Shown: piece after piece, positions 10,219 through 16,797 of the stretch
How positions within the stretch are numbered: position 1 is the first letter of the stretch
Layout: each line of letters begins with the position of its first letter
Notes under the pieces: generated by a model
What the model saw: the letters and a program-made list of their open reading frames with translations, nothing else
The model's database searches: none
Told to the model about the DNA's origin: nothing
Position numbers and translations under genes: made by a program
DNA from: Nitrospirota bacterium
Lineage (GTDB): Bacteria > Nitrospirota > Thermodesulfovibrionia > Thermodesulfovibrionales > UBA6898
Direction of reading: 5' to 3'
Assembly: GCA_021811105.1 (NCBI GenBank)
Contig: JAJZPM010000018.1
Location: 1-54,849, forward strand
Length of the DNA: 54,849 nt

Positions 10219-10743
10219 GTGGGCCTGATCAAGGGCGATCTCGGCGCGATGTATCTCTCAGATCTTCTGCAGTGGATCGAACTCTGCGGCAAGGCGGGGA
10301 CCGTCACGATCCGGGCTAATGGGATCGCAAAAAGATTATATTTTGCGGCCGGAAGGTTGATCTTCGTGTCCTCGGAGAAAGAGGGTGAGCGCCTCGGAGA
10401 ATACCTCCACAGGAGCTCGCACGTTGATATAGGAAGAATCAGGACAGCGCTATTTGAGGCGCAGACCATGAAGATCCCTTTTACGCAGCGGCTGCTCAAG
10501 ATGCATTATTTTACCCCTTCGGGGCTGAAAGACGTCATCCGGACACATGCGACTGAAATCCTGCTTGATGCCTTTCGATGGACGGACGGCGAATTCGAAT
10601 TTGACCCGGGCGCCCTGCCGCCGGCCGTCCTCGGGGGTCCGATTAAGCTCGATATGCCGGTGGGACGGTTTCTTGAGATTCTCGAGGCGTCAGGCTCGGT
10701 GATTCAAAAAGAGAACGTGACGTACTATTTCAGGATCAAATAA
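10219..10743 (+). CDS. DUF4388 (PATAN-like) domain protein
   Basis: 174 residues. The N-terminal half (about 1-95) matches DUF4388: the opening G-L-I-K-G-D-L-G-A-M-Y-L-S-D-L-L-Q-W and G-R-L-I-F are typical. These domains occur in regulatory proteins of delta-proteobacteria and Nitrospirota, often fused to receiver or GTPase-activating modules. The C-terminal half has the R-W-T-D-G-E-F-E-F pattern also seen in the family. No catalytic motif or membrane segment. GTG start with an AAGGAG site 7 bases before it. Molecular role unknown; a scaffold or regulator is plausible. Confidence 0.82.
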   Translation: MGLIKGDLGAMYLSDLLQWIELCGKAGTVTIRANGIAKRLYFAAGRLIFVSSEKEGERLGEYLHRSSHVDIGRIRTALFEAQTMKIPFTQRLLKMHYFTPSGLKDVIRTHATEILLDAFRWTDGEFEFDPGALPPAVLGGPIKLDMPVGRFLEILEASGSVIQKENVTYYFRIK

Positions 10744-10803: not shown

Positions 10804-12177
10804 TTGAAAAAACCCTGGGCTGGCAGGTTTACAGACACGACGTCGGAGTTGGTCGAAGCCTTCACGGAATCCATCTCCTATGACAGGAGGCTCTGGAGGC
10901 AGGATATCGCGGGAAGTATCGTCCACGCAAGGATGCTGGGCAGGCAGGGTATCATCCCCAAGAAAGACGCCGAAGCTATAGTAAAAGGTCTCGAAGAGAT
11001 CGCCTCGGAGATCGGGGCGGGAAGGTTCAGGTTCAGCACGGCGCTGGAAGACATTCATATGAATATCGAAGCGGCGCTGATAAAGAAAATCGGCCCTGCG
11101 GGCAAGAAGCTACATACCGCACGTTCAAGAAACGACCAGGTCGCACTTGACCTCAGACTTTATCTGAGGGAAGAGACCGAAGGCGCCATCTCTTCCCTCA
11201 GGAACCTCCAGAGGACGATGCTGAAGATCTGCGAGCGCCACCTCGAGGCGATCATGCCGGGGTATACCCACACCCAGAGGGCCCAGCCCGTTTTACTGTC
11301 CCACCATCTGCTTGCGTACGTGGAAATGTTCCAGCGCGACAGGGAGCGGTTTGCGGACGCACTGGACCGCATCAATGTTTTGCCGCTGGGTGCATGCGCG
11401 CTGGCCGGAACGACATTGCCCATCGACAGGGCATATGTCGCCAAGGCGCTCGGTTTCCGCCGTGTCTCCGGCAACAGCATCGATGCAGTATCGGACAGGG
11501 ATTATGTACTGGAATTCCTGTCCTGCGCTTCCCTCTGTCTGATGCATCTGTCGCGCCTGGCCGAGGAATTCGTCCTCTGGTCGACCGAGGAGTTCGGGAT
11601 GATAGAGATCTCCGACAGATTTACAACGGGGTCAAGTATCATGCCTCAAAAGAAAAACCCCGATGTCGCGGAACTCATACGGGGGAAGACCGGAAAAGTT
11701 TACGGGAACCTTATCGCCGTCCTCACCCTCATGAAGGGGTTGCCGCTTTCGTATAACCGCGACATGCAGGAAGACAAGCCCTCCCTCTTCGAGGCCGCCG
11801 ACACGCTGAAGTCCTGTCTGGCGGTCATGGAGGCGATGCTTCCCGAGGTGCGTTTCAACACCGGACGGATGAGCGCCACAGCGGAAAAAGGGTATTCGAC
11901 GGCCACTGACCTGGCCGAGTATCTCGTGAGAAAAGGCGTCCCCTTCAGGGAGGCTCATGAGATCACCGGCAAGGTAGTACTGTATTGCATTACCCACGGG
12001 AAAAACCTTCTCTCGCTTGATCTGAAGGAACTGGAATCTTTTTCCCCTTTTATCGCGAAAGACGTCTACCCTTTCTTGGATCCTTCCCAGTCTGTGAAGT
12101 CGCGACGCTCCTATGGAGGGACCGCACCCTCCGAGGTGAGAAGACAGATCAGACAGTACCGGAAGATTCTTGCCTGA
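10804..12177 (+). CDS. argH: Argininosuccinate lyase
   Basis: Cleaves argininosuccinate to arginine and fumarate, the last step of arginine synthesis. 457 residues. The fumarase/aspartase superfamily signature G-S-S-I-M-P-Q-K-K-N-P-D is present, along with H-T-A-R-S-R-N-D-Q and H-T-H/T-Q-R-A-Q-P segments that line the active site. TTG start at 10804 with GGGAGGG six bases upstream. No other arginine gene is adjacent; argC and argJ lie about 37 kb away. The stop overlaps the upstream TTG alternative of the following lipoprotein gene, and the likely ATG of that gene is one base after the stop. Confidence 0.97.
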   Translation: MKKPWAGRFTDTTSELVEAFTESISYDRRLWRQDIAGSIVHARMLGRQGIIPKKDAEAIVKGLEEIASEIGAGRFRFSTALEDIHMNIEAALIKKIGPAGKKLHTARSRNDQVALDLRLYLREETEGAISSLRNLQRTMLKICERHLEAIMPGYTHTQRAQPVLLSHHLLAYVEMFQRDRERFADALDRINVLPLGACALAGTTLPIDRAYVAKALGFRRVSGNSIDAVSDRDYVLEFLSCASLCLMHLSRLAEEFVLWSTEEFGMIEISDRFTTGSSIMPQKKNPDVAELIRGKTGKVYGNLIAVLTLMKGLPLSYNRDMQEDKPSLFEAADTLKSCLAVMEAMLPEVRFNTGRMSATAEKGYSTATDLAEYLVRKGVPFREAHEITGKVVLYCITHGKNLLSLDLKELESFSPFIAKDVYPFLDPSQSVKSRRSYGGTAPSEVRRQIRQYRKILA

Positions 12178-12178
12178 G

Positions 12179-13135
12179 ATGCGCATGCGCAAAAGGCATT
12201 TCGCCCTTTCCGGACCGCCGGCCGTACTTCTTCTTCTTTGCTTACTCTTCGGCATTTCTTCCTGCGGAAAGAAGGGCGCCCTCACCCTCGTATCCCATGA
12301 AAAACCGGCGGCCCCTTCCCACCTCACCGCCCACCACAGGGAAGGCGTGATCATACTGTCATGGGATTTCCCGGCAGAAAAAGAGAGGGAGGTCGCGGGC
12401 TTCATTACTCTGAGGGCCACGGAAGGGGAGTTTGAAAAAATTGCTTCCCTGGACAGCAGGTCCCGCTCCTTTCGCGATACCACCTTTAAGGAGGGGACGA
12501 ACTATCGCTATGAGGTCCTGACAAGGAACCTTGCGGGAATACTCAGCGATGCCTCGGACGTTGTGGCCCTTATCCCCTTCCCCGGACCCATGCCCCCGAG
12601 AGAAATAACTTCGCGGATCATCGGTGATTCCGTGGTCTTGTCCTGGGAAAAGACCGGTGTCAAAACATTGTACAACGTCTACAGGACCTTTTCGAAAGGG
12701 GTATACGGTCCCGCGCCGCTGAATACCTTCCCACTTGGGGACAACGCCTTTCACGATATTTTTTTTATCGACAGGCCCGTCTACTACACCATCCGCAGTC
12801 TGTCCGAGAACCTGGATGAAGGACCGCCGTCTGCGGAATTTGCGGTGGACCCCGGACAGCTTGTTCCGCCGGCCCCGCAGGACCTCCGCTGTTTTGTGAT
12901 GCCGGACAGGATAGATCTCTCCTGGAAAGAACCGCAGGCAGCGTGGGTCACCGGCTTCAGAGTATACAGAAAAATCGGGTCCGAAGAGTATGCACTGATC
13001 GGCGAAACCCAGATCCCCTCCTTCGTCGACATGTACAATCCCTCACTGAATAGGGACTATCGCGTCACTGTGCTCGGACCTTCAAGAGAGGGGCCGCCCA
13101 CGGAAATAGTCGGCGCGTGCAGGAATCCGGAATGA
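12179..13135 (+). CDS. LptM-like N-terminus fused to fibronectin type III domains, lipoprotein
   Basis: About 318 residues. A hydrophobic signal with lipobox G-I-S-S-C is followed immediately by G-K-K-G-A-L, very close to the C-G-x-K-G-P-L motif that opens LptM (YifL), the small lipoprotein that assists LptD maturation. In proteobacteria lptM lies directly behind or near argH and before lysA, so both position and motif agree. Instead of ending after some 60 residues, this protein continues with about three fibronectin type III-like domains (W-D-F, W-E-K and W-K-E strands around residues 65, 160 and 260). lysA is not adjacent. Start chosen at ATG 12179; TTG 12170 and ATG 12185 are possible. 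Expected in the periplasm, lipid-anchored. Function in LPS assembly is inference. Confidence 0.75.
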   Translation: MRMRKRHFALSGPPAVLLLLCLLFGISSCGKKGALTLVSHEKPAAPSHLTAHHREGVIILSWDFPAEKEREVAGFITLRATEGEFEKIASLDSRSRSFRDTTFKEGTNYRYEVLTRNLAGILSDASDVVALIPFPGPMPPREITSRIIGDSVVLSWEKTGVKTLYNVYRTFSKGVYGPAPLNTFPLGDNAFHDIFFIDRPVYYTIRSLSENLDEGPPSAEFAVDPGQLVPPAPQDLRCFVMPDRIDLSWKEPQAAWVTGFRVYRKIGSEEYALIGETQIPSFVDMYNPSLNRDYRVTVLGPSREGPPTEIVGACRNPE

Positions 13136-13304: not shown

Positions 13305-15476
13305 ATGTATACCATGCAAAAATCGCTTCGATTGCTGGCTATCGAGGATTCAGAGGAAGACGTTATACTCCTGACGCGCGAACTTAGGGCGGGAGGATAC
13401 GAACCCGACTGGGAACGCGTCGAAACTGCAGAAGCAATGAAATCCGCAATAGCCCAAAAGCAATGGGATATCATCATCTCCGATTACATCATGCCGCAAT
13501 TCAGCGGACTGGATGCGCTGGATCTCGTGAAGCAAAGCGGGATCGATATTCCGTTCATCATCGTGTCCGGAAAAATAGGAGAAGACATTGCGGTGGAAGC
13601 GATGAAGGCCGGAGCTCATGATTACATCGTAAAGGGGAATCTGGCAAGACTTGTTCCTGCTGTGGAGAGGGAGCTTCGTGAAGCCGAGACGAGGAAGGCC
13701 CGCAGGCTTGCGGAAGAAGAACTGAAACGTTATCGGGAACACCTCGAGGAACTTGTCGCCAGCCGTACGGACGAACTGAAAGGCGCAAATGAACAGTTAC
13801 AGCTGGAGATCGCCGACCGGAAGATGGCGGAAGATGCCCTCCGCAAGGCGGTCAAGAGGGCAAACGACGAAAAGGCAAAGTCGGACGCGATCATCGCGGC
13901 GCTTGGCGACGGCATCGTCATCCAGGACAGAGAATACAGGATCACCTATCAGAACCGTATCCATAAAAAGCTTATCGGTGACCAGGTCGGCCAATATTGT
14001 TATATTGCATACCGCTCCAGTGGAGACGTCTGCGAAGACTGCCCGATCGAGATGTCGTTCGACGACGGAAGGATCCACAAAGCCGAAAGGACAATCAAGA
14101 CCGACAAAGGCGTGCTGAACATAGAAGTAACTGCTTCCCCGCTTCGCGACGCGACCGGAGAGATCATCTCGGGTATCGAGGTTGTCCGGGACGTGACCGA
14201 GCGAAGGAAGATGGAGAACGAGTTGAGGGAACACCGCGACCACCTCGACCTGCTCGTGAAGGAGCGCACCGCCGAACTGAGCAAAGTCAACAGGGAACTC
14301 AGGGCGGAGATCATGCGACGGATACAGATGGAGAAGGACCTGATCGAGAGCCAGCGTTTCGTCCATCGCATAGCTGACGCCACTCCGAACATACTTTATC
14401 TTTATGACGTCATAGAAAACAAGAACATTTACGTGAATTCGATAGTCAAGGAGGTCCTCGGCTACTCGCCTGAAGCGATCAAGAAGATGAAGAGCGCGTT
14501 TTTCAAGACCCTTCTCCATCCGGACGACCTGTCTGTCGTCGAATCGATGGCAGACAGGTTTCTGAAGGCAAAAGACGGGGACATCATCGAATCGGAATAC
14601 CGGCTGAAGAACGCAAAGGGAGAGTGGCGCTGGTTCTACAGCAGGGACATTGTTTTCAAGAGGACGTCTGACGGTCTCCTGAAGCTCATCCTCGGCATTT
14701 CGCAGGACGTCACCGAACGCAGGGTGGTGGAACAGGAACTGAAGAACTCCCGTGAACAACTGCGTATTCTCCTGGCCCATCTGCAGTCGGTGAGGGAAGA
14801 CGAAAGGACCAGGATATCGAGGGAGATCCATGATGAGCTGGGCCAGTCGCTTACCGCCCTGAAGATTGACCTGTCCTGGCTGCTGAAGCGGCTGAACAAG
14901 GAGCAAAAACCCCTCGTGGAGAAGGCCAAACTGATGTCGAATCTGATCGACATGAACATACAGACCGTCAAGCGTATCTCGGCGGAGCTTCGGCCGGGAC
15001 TTCTCGACGATCTCGGTCTGCCCGCGGCCTTCGAGTGGCAGGCCGAAGATTTTCAAAAGAGAACGGGTATTCATTGTGAGGTAAAGATCCGGCCCGAAGA
15101 CATCGCGCTCGACAGGAACCTTTCGACTGCGATATTCCGCATCTTTCAGGAGACGCTCACCAATGTCGTGCGGCATGCCAAGGCGAGGAATGTCAGCGTG
15201 ACCCTGACAAAAAAGAGAGAAGAGTTTCTCCTCGAGGTGAAAGACGACGGGAAAGGCATTACGGAGAAACAGATTTCGAGTCCGAAATCGATCGGGTTAA
15301 TAGGCATGAGGGAACGGGTGCATTTCTTCGGCGGCGGCGTGAAGATCAGCGGGAAGAAAGATAAAGGGACCGTGGTGACGGTGACTATTCCCATAAAGAA
15401 GGCGGCGGAAAGCATCGGCGCGCCTTCTGCAGACATGCCCGCAAAGAGTCGGCCCGTGATCGGAGGGAGGGCGTGA
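13305..15476 (+). CDS. REC-PAS-PAS NarL-type histidine kinase
   Basis: 723 residues, no membrane helix. Domains in order: receiver (about 5-125, phospho-acceptor D60), coiled coil (about 130-185), PAS (about 190-300) ending in a PAC segment, second coiled coil, second PAS with PAC (about 350-475), and a HisKA_3 dimerisation domain with acceptor H509 in I-S-R-E-I-H-D-E-L-G-Q. A HATPase_c domain with D-D-G-K-G and G-L-I-G-M-R-E-R follows. The first PAS has cysteines C232, C243 and C246 in a C-x10-C-x2-C-P pattern that could hold a redox cofactor. The cytoplasmic location and receiver input suggest integration of an upstream phosphorelay with an internal redox or metabolic signal. The stop overlaps the GTG of its partner regulator. 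Confidence 0.93.
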   Translation: MYTMQKSLRLLAIEDSEEDVILLTRELRAGGYEPDWERVETAEAMKSAIAQKQWDIIISDYIMPQFSGLDALDLVKQSGIDIPFIIVSGKIGEDIAVEAMKAGAHDYIVKGNLARLVPAVERELREAETRKARRLAEEELKRYREHLEELVASRTDELKGANEQLQLEIADRKMAEDALRKAVKRANDEKAKSDAIIAALGDGIVIQDREYRITYQNRIHKKLIGDQVGQYCYIAYRSSGDVCEDCPIEMSFDDGRIHKAERTIKTDKGVLNIEVTASPLRDATGEIISGIEVVRDVTERRKMENELREHRDHLDLLVKERTAELSKVNRELRAEIMRRIQMEKDLIESQRFVHRIADATPNILYLYDVIENKNIYVNSIVKEVLGYSPEAIKKMKSAFFKTLLHPDDLSVVESMADRFLKAKDGDIIESEYRLKNAKGEWRWFYSRDIVFKRTSDGLLKLILGISQDVTERRVVEQELKNSREQLRILLAHLQSVREDERTRISREIHDELGQSLTALKIDLSWLLKRLNKEQKPLVEKAKLMSNLIDMNIQTVKRISAELRPGLLDDLGLPAAFEWQAEDFQKRTGIHCEVKIRPEDIALDRNLSTAIFRIFQETLTNVVRHAKARNVSVTLTKKREEFLLEVKDDGKGITEKQISSPKSIGLIGMRERVHFFGGGVKISGKKDKGTVVTVTIPIKKAAESIGAPSADMPAKSRPVIGGRA

Positions 15477-16105
15477 TCAGGATACTGATCGCCGACGATC
15501 ACAGGATCGTTCGTGAGGGGCTAAAGCAGATCCTCGCCGAAACCCCTGACATGATCGTGGTGGATGAGGCGAGTAACGGACAGGAGGTTCTCGGCAAGGT
15601 ATGGGAAAACGACCACGACGTCGTACTTCTGGACATCTCCATGCCGGGACGGAGCGGTCTCGACATTCTGAAACAGCTCAAAAACGAGCGGCCGAAGCTC
15701 GCAGTCCTTGTGCTGAGCATGTACTCTGAAGAACAGTATGCGATTAGGGCACTAAGGGCCGGCGCCTCGGGATATATGACGAAGGAAAGCGCACCGGATG
15801 AGTTGATCGAGGCGATAAGGAAAGTATCGACGGGCAGAAAATACATAAGCCCTACGGTAGCCGAGAAATTGGCCGTCAGTCTCGAGGCGAACGACGAAAG
15901 GCCTGCCCACGAAAATCTTTCCGACCGCGAGTATCAGGTGATGTGCATGATTGCCTCCGGCAAGACGATCAAGACCATTGCGGATGAACTGTCACTCAGC
16001 GTCAAGACGGTCAGCACCTACCGCACCCGTATCCTCGAGAAGATGCGGATGAAGAACAACGCGGAATTGACGCATTACTCAATACAGAACCGTCTGGTAG
16101 AATAG
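15473..16105 (+). CDS. NarL/FixJ-family response regulator
   Basis: 210 residues: receiver domain (1-120, phosphorylatable D54 in V-L-L-D-I-S-M-P-G) and a LuxR-type helix-turn-helix (about 145-205; L-S-D-R-E-Y-Q-V and T-V-S-T-Y-R motifs). GTG start overlaps the TGA of the kinase gene (GTGA), so the two are translationally coupled and are almost certainly a cognate pair. Targets are not identifiable from the sequence. Confidence 0.95.
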   Translation: MIRILIADDHRIVREGLKQILAETPDMIVVDEASNGQEVLGKVWENDHDVVLLDISMPGRSGLDILKQLKNERPKLAVLVLSMYSEEQYAIRALRAGASGYMTKESAPDELIEAIRKVSTGRKYISPTVAEKLAVSLEANDERPAHENLSDREYQVMCMIASGKTIKTIADELSLSVKTVSTYRTRILEKMRMKNNAELTHYSIQNRLVE

Positions 16106-16212: not shown

Positions 16213-16797
16213 ATGAAAGAAAAGATCCTTAGAGAATTCAAAGAGAGCATTTCCGTCAAGGAAAAATTCATCCAGGAGCACCTGGACACCGTCATAGAGG
16301 TGTCGAAGGCGATCGCCAACGCCTTCAATGAAGGCAATAAACTGATTCTCTTCGGAAACGGCGGAAGCTCGACTGATGCGTCGCACATCGCCGCGGAGTT
16401 CGTCAACAGGTTCAAGCGGGAGCGGCCGGGACTCCCCGCGATCGCCCTGAATACGGACATGGCGGTCATTACGTCAATCGCCAATGATTACGATTACTCC
16501 GAAATTTTTTCCCGCCAGCTGAAATCTCTGGCGGTTGAAGGCGATATCGTGGTCGCCATCACCACAAGCGGTCATTCCTCAAATGTCCTGAAAGCGATGG
16601 AAGTGGCGAAAAAGAAGAAGCTCAAGTCGATTCTCTTCACCGGCGCAAAAGGTGAAAAAATCGCGGCCAAGTCAACCTTCTCGTTTGTCGTACCGTCGGA
16701 CAATACCCCGAGAATACAGGAAACGCATATCACGCTGGGGCACGTCCTCTGCCTCATGGTCGAGGAAATACTGTTTGAAGAACCCCGCAAGAAGTAA
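16213..16797 (+). CDS. gmhA: Phosphoheptose isomerase (SIS domain)
   Basis: Converts sedoheptulose 7-phosphate to D-glycero-D-manno-heptose 7-phosphate, the entry to ADP-heptose for LPS core or S-layer glycans. 194 residues. The SIS fold has F-G-N-G-G-S-S-T-D-A-S-H (about 48-59) and T-T-S-G-H-S-S-N-V (about 117-125) for phosphosugar binding. The C-terminal I-Q-E-T-H-I-T-L-G-H carries the family's catalytic or metal residues. No other heptose gene is in the window. Preceded by a structured leader and a 107-base gap, so it may have its own control rather than belong to the two-component operon. Confidence 0.93.
   Translation: MKEKILREFKESISVKEKFIQEHLDTVIEVSKAIANAFNEGNKLILFGNGGSSTDASHIAAEFVNRFKRERPGLPAIALNTDMAVITSIANDYDYSEIFSRQLKSLAVEGDIVVAITTSGHSSNVLKAMEVAKKKKLKSILFTGAKGEKIAAKSTFSFVVPSDNTPRIQETHITLGHVLCLMVEEILFEEPRKK

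Follow-up and report, generated by a model that had tools for sequence, protein, structure and literature searches.

A lipoprotein with three fibronectin-like domains and an LptM-like N-terminus at the probable lptM locus of Nitrospirota

Introduction

LptM assists the machinery for lipopolysaccharide export to the cell surface, and in Proteobacteria its gene stands in the order argH-lptM-lysA. The protein was described in 2023; in one report, lptM-like genes are virtually absent outside Proteobacteria, the tail that follows the motif is generally under 70 residues long, and E275 of LptD was proposed from a predicted model as the salt-bridge partner of LptM K23 (PMC10567701). A second report, on E. 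coli, resolved the ten N-terminal residues of mature LptM at the hinge and lateral gate of LptD; the segment behind the cysteine lay inside the barrel lumen on the periplasmic side, and the N-terminal region was enough for co-purification with the translocon (PMC12644819).

A stretch of 54,849 nucleotides from a Nitrospirota bacterium (the window) was analysed here, in which an initial annotation had placed an LptM-like lipoprotein, extended by fibronectin-like (Fn3) domains, behind argH. No paper on an Fn3-bearing form was found in literature searches, subscription papers and preprints being outside their reach.

Results

Gene and protein

The argH stop codon occupies 12175-12177 and the lipoprotein ATG (12179-12181) begins one base further on, so the gene lies directly behind argH, as had been annotated. 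Its stop codon ends at 13135 and the product has exactly 318 amino acids, the approximate length given at the outset. The features of the gene pair are as follows.

10804..12177, + strand: argH, TTG start as listed (Lyase_1 263.9 bits, ASL_C2 96.9 bits)
12179..13135, + strand: lipoprotein gene, 318 aa, LptM-like N-terminus followed by three Fn3 domains
12179..12262, + strand: signal peptide, residues 1-28, lipobox I-S-S-C (sequence; AlphaFold2 helix 13-27)
12263..12289, + strand: mature residues 1-9, C-G-K-K-G-A-L-T-L, LptM-like motif (conservation rank 1/281; short-form profile match)
12314..12577, + strand: Fn3 domain 1, about residues 46-133 (AlphaFold2 strands 47-131)
12578..12856, + strand: Fn3 domain 2, about residues 134-226 (AlphaFold2 strands 141-223)
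12857..13126, + strand: Fn3 domain 3, about residues 227-316 (AlphaFold2; best Pfam fn3 stretch 232-303)

The acylated cysteine is Cys29, the lipobox reads I-S-S-C and GKKGALTL comes next, which agrees with the cysteine followed by G-K-K-G-A-L in the initial annotation. Three traits of LptM, glycine after the acylated cysteine, a basic residue 4 and Gly5, are all present. The mature protein has 290 residues and thus exceeds the size of LptM (generally under 70 residues after the motif).

The annotated fibronectin-like domains were recovered and number three. Pfam fn3 matched the protein with 36.8 bits (cut-off 25) in two stretches, an AlphaFold2 model built from an alignment of 45 sequences (mean pLDDT 91.3) contained three Fn3-like beta sandwiches, and the best Foldseek matches in the PDB were generic Fn3 tandems (LAR, titin, fibronectin). 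With fn3 above its cut-off and an Fn3 fold, the protein belongs among the Fn3 domain proteins. The first Fn3 strand begins about 18 residues past the cysteine. W249, D284 and Y294 in domain 3 were nearly invariant among 53 sequences.

Phylum-wide searches were run against Nitrospirota genomes, grouped under family codes (f1, f2 etc.). The whole protein was matched in 138 of 295 genomes at E <= 0.001, the weaker rows including other Fn3 proteins. The 61 named loci of relatives were nearly all assigned to Nitrospirae, Nitrospirota, Nitrospiraceae, Nitrospira, Thermodesulfovibrio or Thermodesulfovibrionales; the rest comprised three from 'uncultured bacterium' and one weak match from a Clostridiales bin.

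Lipoproteins in the slot behind argH

Matches to argH were obtained in 293 of the 295 genomes. The initial annotation had proposed gathering argH-adjacent lipoproteins, and in Nitrospirota a lipoprotein was called behind 107 of 118 argH genes, over 27 family codes. The 118 loci were taken from the argH places listed, leaving out G033, G054 and G263 (contig ends) as well as G091, G165, G252 and G270; places already within loci L001-L030 were likewise not added. Among the 11 loci without an automatic call, L046, L117 and L144 had the C-G motif when inspected by eye and had been missed by the filter.

The 107 lipoproteins comprised 45 short forms (<100 mature residues), among them L040, truncated at a contig end, and 62 longer forms. 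Residue 2 was glycine in 44 of 45 short and 61 of 62 longer forms (105/107). At residue 4, lysine was found in 33 of the 45 short forms and lysine or arginine in 61 of the 62 longer forms (K/R in 94/107 overall), residue 5 was glycine in 39/45 and 35/62, and residue 7 was proline in 39/45 and 53/62, respectively. Valine or isoleucine replaces lysine 4 in a set of f27 and f30 lipoproteins (L097, L128, L129, L131, L133, L135, L136, L140, L146); these are short, argH-linked and read C-G-x-[VI]-G-x-P/L, and LptD is still present in their hosts.

Within the order, short forms such as C-G-K-K-G-P-P-T-L-K were found in f7, f9 and f11, and the Fn3 form, e.g. C-G-K-K-G-D-P-T-L-K, in the members examined of f1-f6, f8, f10 and f12, with the exception of one short f3 gene (G267). 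A form of about 130-140 mature residues occurred in f15 together with two short ones, and the match to the query in two f15 genomes (G140, G249) covered the third Fn3 domain only; the f21 form has about 236 mature residues. These varied lengths suggest a tail of zero to three Fn3 domains. In f13 a 77-residue protein (G228, L057) stops shortly behind the motif and looks like a truncated Fn3 form. The f3 exception (L116) is shortened to 74 residues, and the motif or a variant of it is present there as in L057. When short and Fn3 labels were placed on an LptD tree (100 genomes, 92 labelled; G005, G242 and G243 set by eye, and genomes with a whole-protein match set to Fn3), at least four changes of form were required.

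Conservation of the N-terminal motif

An earlier conservation ranking was biased, since its loci had been fetched partly with the motif as bait, and the ranking was therefore redone on 30 loci selected by whole-protein score. Mature residues 1-9 were the best-conserved nine-residue segment (rank 1/281). The commonest form among these relatives was C-G-[K/R]-K-G-x-P-T-L, with proline at position 7. Homologues without the literal C-G-K-K-G-x-L, which had been named in advance as counting against the annotation, did appear: only 4 of 30 retain it, because 26 have proline at position 7 (leucine in 4) and six have threonine or glutamate at position 5 (glycine in 24). The looser C-G-[K/R]-K was nevertheless present in 30/30. 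It was also retained in nine Fn3 genes whose fetched stretch held no argH.

A degenerate codon pattern for C-G-[KRNSHQ]-K-G, which would miss C-G-L-K-G, matched the 3.9 Mb genome 17 times, 5 on the forward and 12 on the reverse strand (control pattern, 7 and 7); the site in the lipoprotein gene was the only one preceded by a hydrophobic segment of adequate length. The protein scored 14.0 on a matrix built from residues 3-9 of the short forms, a value reached by 0 of 200,000 random C-G heptamers. Of the longer forms, 52 of 62 scored above 5 and 10 scored 5 or less. Six of seven other lipoproteins of the same genome scored below zero and one scored 9.3.

LptM models and short-form profiles

PF13627 gave the protein 9.1 bits (E 1.6), short of the curated cut-off of 27.3, and a PF13627 search of the genome returned 0 matches. 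The NF047847 equivalog gave 18.0 bits, short of its cut-off of 27.7. The latter score was rejected as evidence for LptM: four of seven control lipoproteins from the same genome matched NF047847 with 12.1 to 20.0 bits, probably because the model contains the signal peptide, and an unrelated lipoprotein thus scores as high. At a loose limit, NF047847 was the family matched most often among the relatives (38/44 short, 39/53 longer), and PF13627 was matched by 23/44 and 24/53. The NF047847 cut-off was exceeded by one Fn3 form (L104, 31.9 bits; one of ten relatives tested) and by two of ten short forms tested (L094, 31.3 bits; L045, 32.0 bits).

A profile of 44 short-form rows was searched against the genome itself and matched the lipoprotein gene with E 9.0e-6 (28.0 bits; next match 17.2 bits), the remaining matches, where inspected, being generic lipoprotein starts without the motif, LptE among them. 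This profile held two Fn3 remnants (L057, L116) and two short f15 forms; when it was rebuilt without these (40 rows), the gene was the sole significant match in the genome (24.9 bits; next 16.4). By both short-form profiles it is the only copy of its kind in the genome. A separate true lptM elsewhere, the other observation named beforehand as unfavourable, was not found in the genome with these profiles.

Across the order, the 44-row profile matched 94 of 111 genomes, 89 of them exactly once and five with a second, weak match (E 3.5e-4 to 8.6e-4). Best matches fell in short genes in 27 genomes, all f7, f9, f11 or f13, and in frames of at least 303 aa in 65; the other two were an unrelated CGKKAEEK lipoprotein (G188) and an Fn3 gene interrupted by a stop (G182, L355). 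No profile match was obtained in 17 of the 111 genomes, ten of them f8. Since the short forms of the order are included in the profile, the matches to Fn3 genes, the two remnants excepted, are the independent part of this result.

LptD and LptE

LptD was identified in the genome by PF19838 matches (LptD_2 28.6 bits) as a protein of 674 aa (L031:295-2319, minus strand), encoded behind a gene that resembles folC; no LptD match was obtained when the genome was searched with PF04453. LptE was identified with 48.4 bits, and the host thus encodes the LptDE translocon.

LptD sequences from 100 genomes of the phylum were compared. Cys161, in the N-terminal part, and Cys634, close to the C-terminus, were present in 100/100; a further cysteine (169) was kept in only 48/100. 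In chain 5iv9 the residue aligned with Cys161 is the cysteine of FTSC, which we take to be C173; we infer that Cys634 is C724/725. Glu261 was glutamate in 87/100 and aspartate in 9/100, and corresponds to E. coli E275 by the 9rps_A offset (68-270 to 78-284), assuming no gap in the last nine columns. In 67 genomes this position was set against residue 4 of the lipoprotein; it was acidic in 54 of the 55 whose lipoprotein has K/R4 and in 10 of the 12 others. Covariation of K4 and E275 was rejected as support, the glutamate position being acidic whether or not residue 4 is basic, so that the glutamate evidence is permissive only.

Flanking genes

A gmhA-like gene lies downstream in the window.

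16213..16797, + strand: gmhA-like gene (SIS_2 85.8 bits; PRK13936 198.2 bits, below its cut-off of 276)

Among the relatives, a gmhA-like gene was located within 350 bases behind short forms in f7 (5/6), f9 (8/8), f11 (2/2) and f15 (2/2), and behind Fn3 forms in f15 (5/6), f14 (1/2) and f19 (1/1); both f15 forms therefore sit in argH-X-gmhA. Five of the 30 whole-protein-match loci, all f1, likewise had a gmhA-like gene behind the Fn3 form, with gaps of 68-85 bases. lysA was located within 300 bases behind Fn3 forms in f23 (10/10) and behind short forms in f27 (7/8) and f30 (2/3), and farther downstream in f26 (6/7), f34, f35, f36 and f39. Neither gene was present in the stretch examined in many families, including f3, f4, f5, f8 and f12. 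The gene in the window occupies the slot common to the short forms of the phylum.

Positions 13305-16105, between the lipoprotein and the gmhA-like gene, encode a PAS histidine kinase that carries a receiver domain, together with a response regulator of the LuxR type; since the gmhA-like gene is directly behind the lipoprotein in a number of relatives, this pair may be an insertion. A DUF4388 protein (69.3 bits) is encoded at 10219-10743, directly upstream of argH.

In f6, lptD and argH share a strand, with lptD about 5-6 kb upstream (positions agree in ten f6 genomes), which is weak evidence of linkage, as all ten genomes are of one genus. Two f6 genomes (L349, L351) have the run folC-lptD-truB-purB-fusA-argH-Fn3 lipoprotein on one strand, with gene names assigned by eye.

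Discussion

Short and Fn3 lipoproteins of Nitrospirota have a lipobox, a C-G-[K/R]-K-rich start and a genomic slot in common, and nearly every matching genome of the order has one form or the other, once. The gene in the window is, on the reading we favour, the Nitrospirota lptM-locus lipoprotein in an Fn3-extended form, and it probably acts at the LptD gate. The nine shared residues and the lipobox amount to little sequence, and orthology rests mainly on synteny. Also against this reading are the matrix scores of 5 or less in 10 of the 62 longer forms, the presence of G5 in only 35 of the 62, the lack of covariation between K4 and E275, the many families with neither a gmhA-like gene nor lysA in the stretch examined, and the 17 genomes of the order without a profile match. 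By analogy with E. coli, the N-terminus probably works like LptM. For the locus, the initial description as an LptM-like lipoprotein with added Fn3 domains has good support, because short, LptM-sized forms and Fn3 forms occupy one slot; for function the support is only partial, both LptM cut-offs having been missed and one of the seven control lipoproteins having outscored the protein on NF047847 (20.0 bits). The protein is best named lptM-locus Fn3 lipoprotein and is not filed as LptM, because it lies below two curated cut-offs and above the LptM size.

The most serious competitor, which we consider unlikely, is an outer-membrane Fn3 lipoprotein with a role of its own (scaffold, or polysaccharide or peptidoglycan binding) that was fused at the lptM slot, its motif surviving through descent or as a signal and having no effect on LptD. 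In its favour, Fn3 domains commonly serve as binding modules, the best fold matches are generic Fn3 tandems, and the third domain is well conserved (W249, D284 and Y294 across the 53 sequences), so the Fn3 tail probably does have its own function. However, residues 1-9 are conserved above any Fn3 stretch, lineages without an Fn3 tail keep the motif, the 77-residue protein of f13 G228 included, and C-G-[K/R]-K is kept in the nine genes without adjoining argH.

It is improbable that C-G-[K/R]-K-G-x-P is a lipoprotein sorting signal and not an LptD-binding peptide. The motif does directly follow the acylated cysteine, where sorting signals lie, and other CGKK starts exist (CGKKEVKP in the same genome, CGKKEDV lipoproteins in relatives); yet a general signal would be expected on many lipoproteins, whereas in the order 89 of 94 matching genomes match just once, and on the residue 3-9 matrix, where the protein in the window scores 14.0, the seven control lipoproteins from its genome give one value of 9.3 and six negative ones. 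That an ordinary lysine-rich lipoprotein start merely happens to follow argH is highly implausible: CGKK starts do arise by chance and sub-threshold LptM scores are non-discriminating, but the counts (C-G-[K/R]-K in 30/30; G2 in 105/107 and K/R4 in 94/107 over 27 family codes) contradict it and random heptamers never reach the observed score.

If the favoured reading, action at the LptD gate, is correct, the N-terminal nine or ten residues, with the acylated cysteine, would lie at the hinge that joins the beta-taco of LptD and the lateral gate of its barrel, as in E. coli; lysine 4 would come close to the glutamate that corresponds to E275, and the motif would help LptD to mature and its gate to open, as E. 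coli LptM does. The part of E. coli LptM after the cysteine is inside the barrel lumen, which speaks against this reading, as little room is left for a folded domain starting so soon. An Fn3 arm beginning so close to the motif should sit at the periplasmic mouth of the barrel. Hanging there, the Fn3 domains may brace LptD, LptE or peptidoglycan. The motif is the constant part of the protein and the Fn3 tail the optional part.

A broader proposal is offered tentatively, and we regard it as having the lesser chance of being right: that LptM is an old component of the lipopolysaccharide translocon found far beyond Proteobacteria, which in much of Nitrospirota became a two-part protein, an LptD-gate plug with an Fn3 arm, which either braces the beta-taco or ties the translocon to another part of the envelope (the job of LptY in E. 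coli), the arm having been gained or lost at least four times while the plug stayed. Were the locus that of LptM, the helper would run through much of another phylum. The short and Fn3 versions, which replace one another in one slot, would then separate, by evolution, the job of the motif from that of the tail, and would make it possible to test directly whether the motif is sufficient by itself at the LptD gate. A new envelope arm would also become available for study, on an essential machine which is also a drug target.

Comparison with known systems

The closest described protein is LptM (YifL; PF13627, NF047847; Enterobacteriaceae). The likeness lies in the lipobox, Cys-Gly, basic residue 4 (K23 in E. 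coli) and Gly5, in a host with LptD and LptE, and in same-slot short relatives that are LptM-sized, two of ten tested exceeding the NF047847 cut-off. The window protein differs in its 290 mature residues (LptM generally <70) and three Fn3 domains, its relatives usually have P7, the hosts are outside Proteobacteria, and its own scores are below both cut-offs.

For the Fn3 tail only, an analogy may be drawn with LptY (YedD), a translocon lipoprotein that binds the LptD beta-taco (PMC12644819). Both have a folded periplasmic lipoprotein domain, but LptY has a lipocalin-like fold and is encoded by a separate gene, whereas the tail described here is Fn3. The Fn3 tandems of human LAR (FnIII 1-4), titin (A84-A86) and fibronectin (12-14) share the fold and the tandem arrangement; they are eukaryotic and differ in function, and the match identifies the domains as Fn3 and no more.
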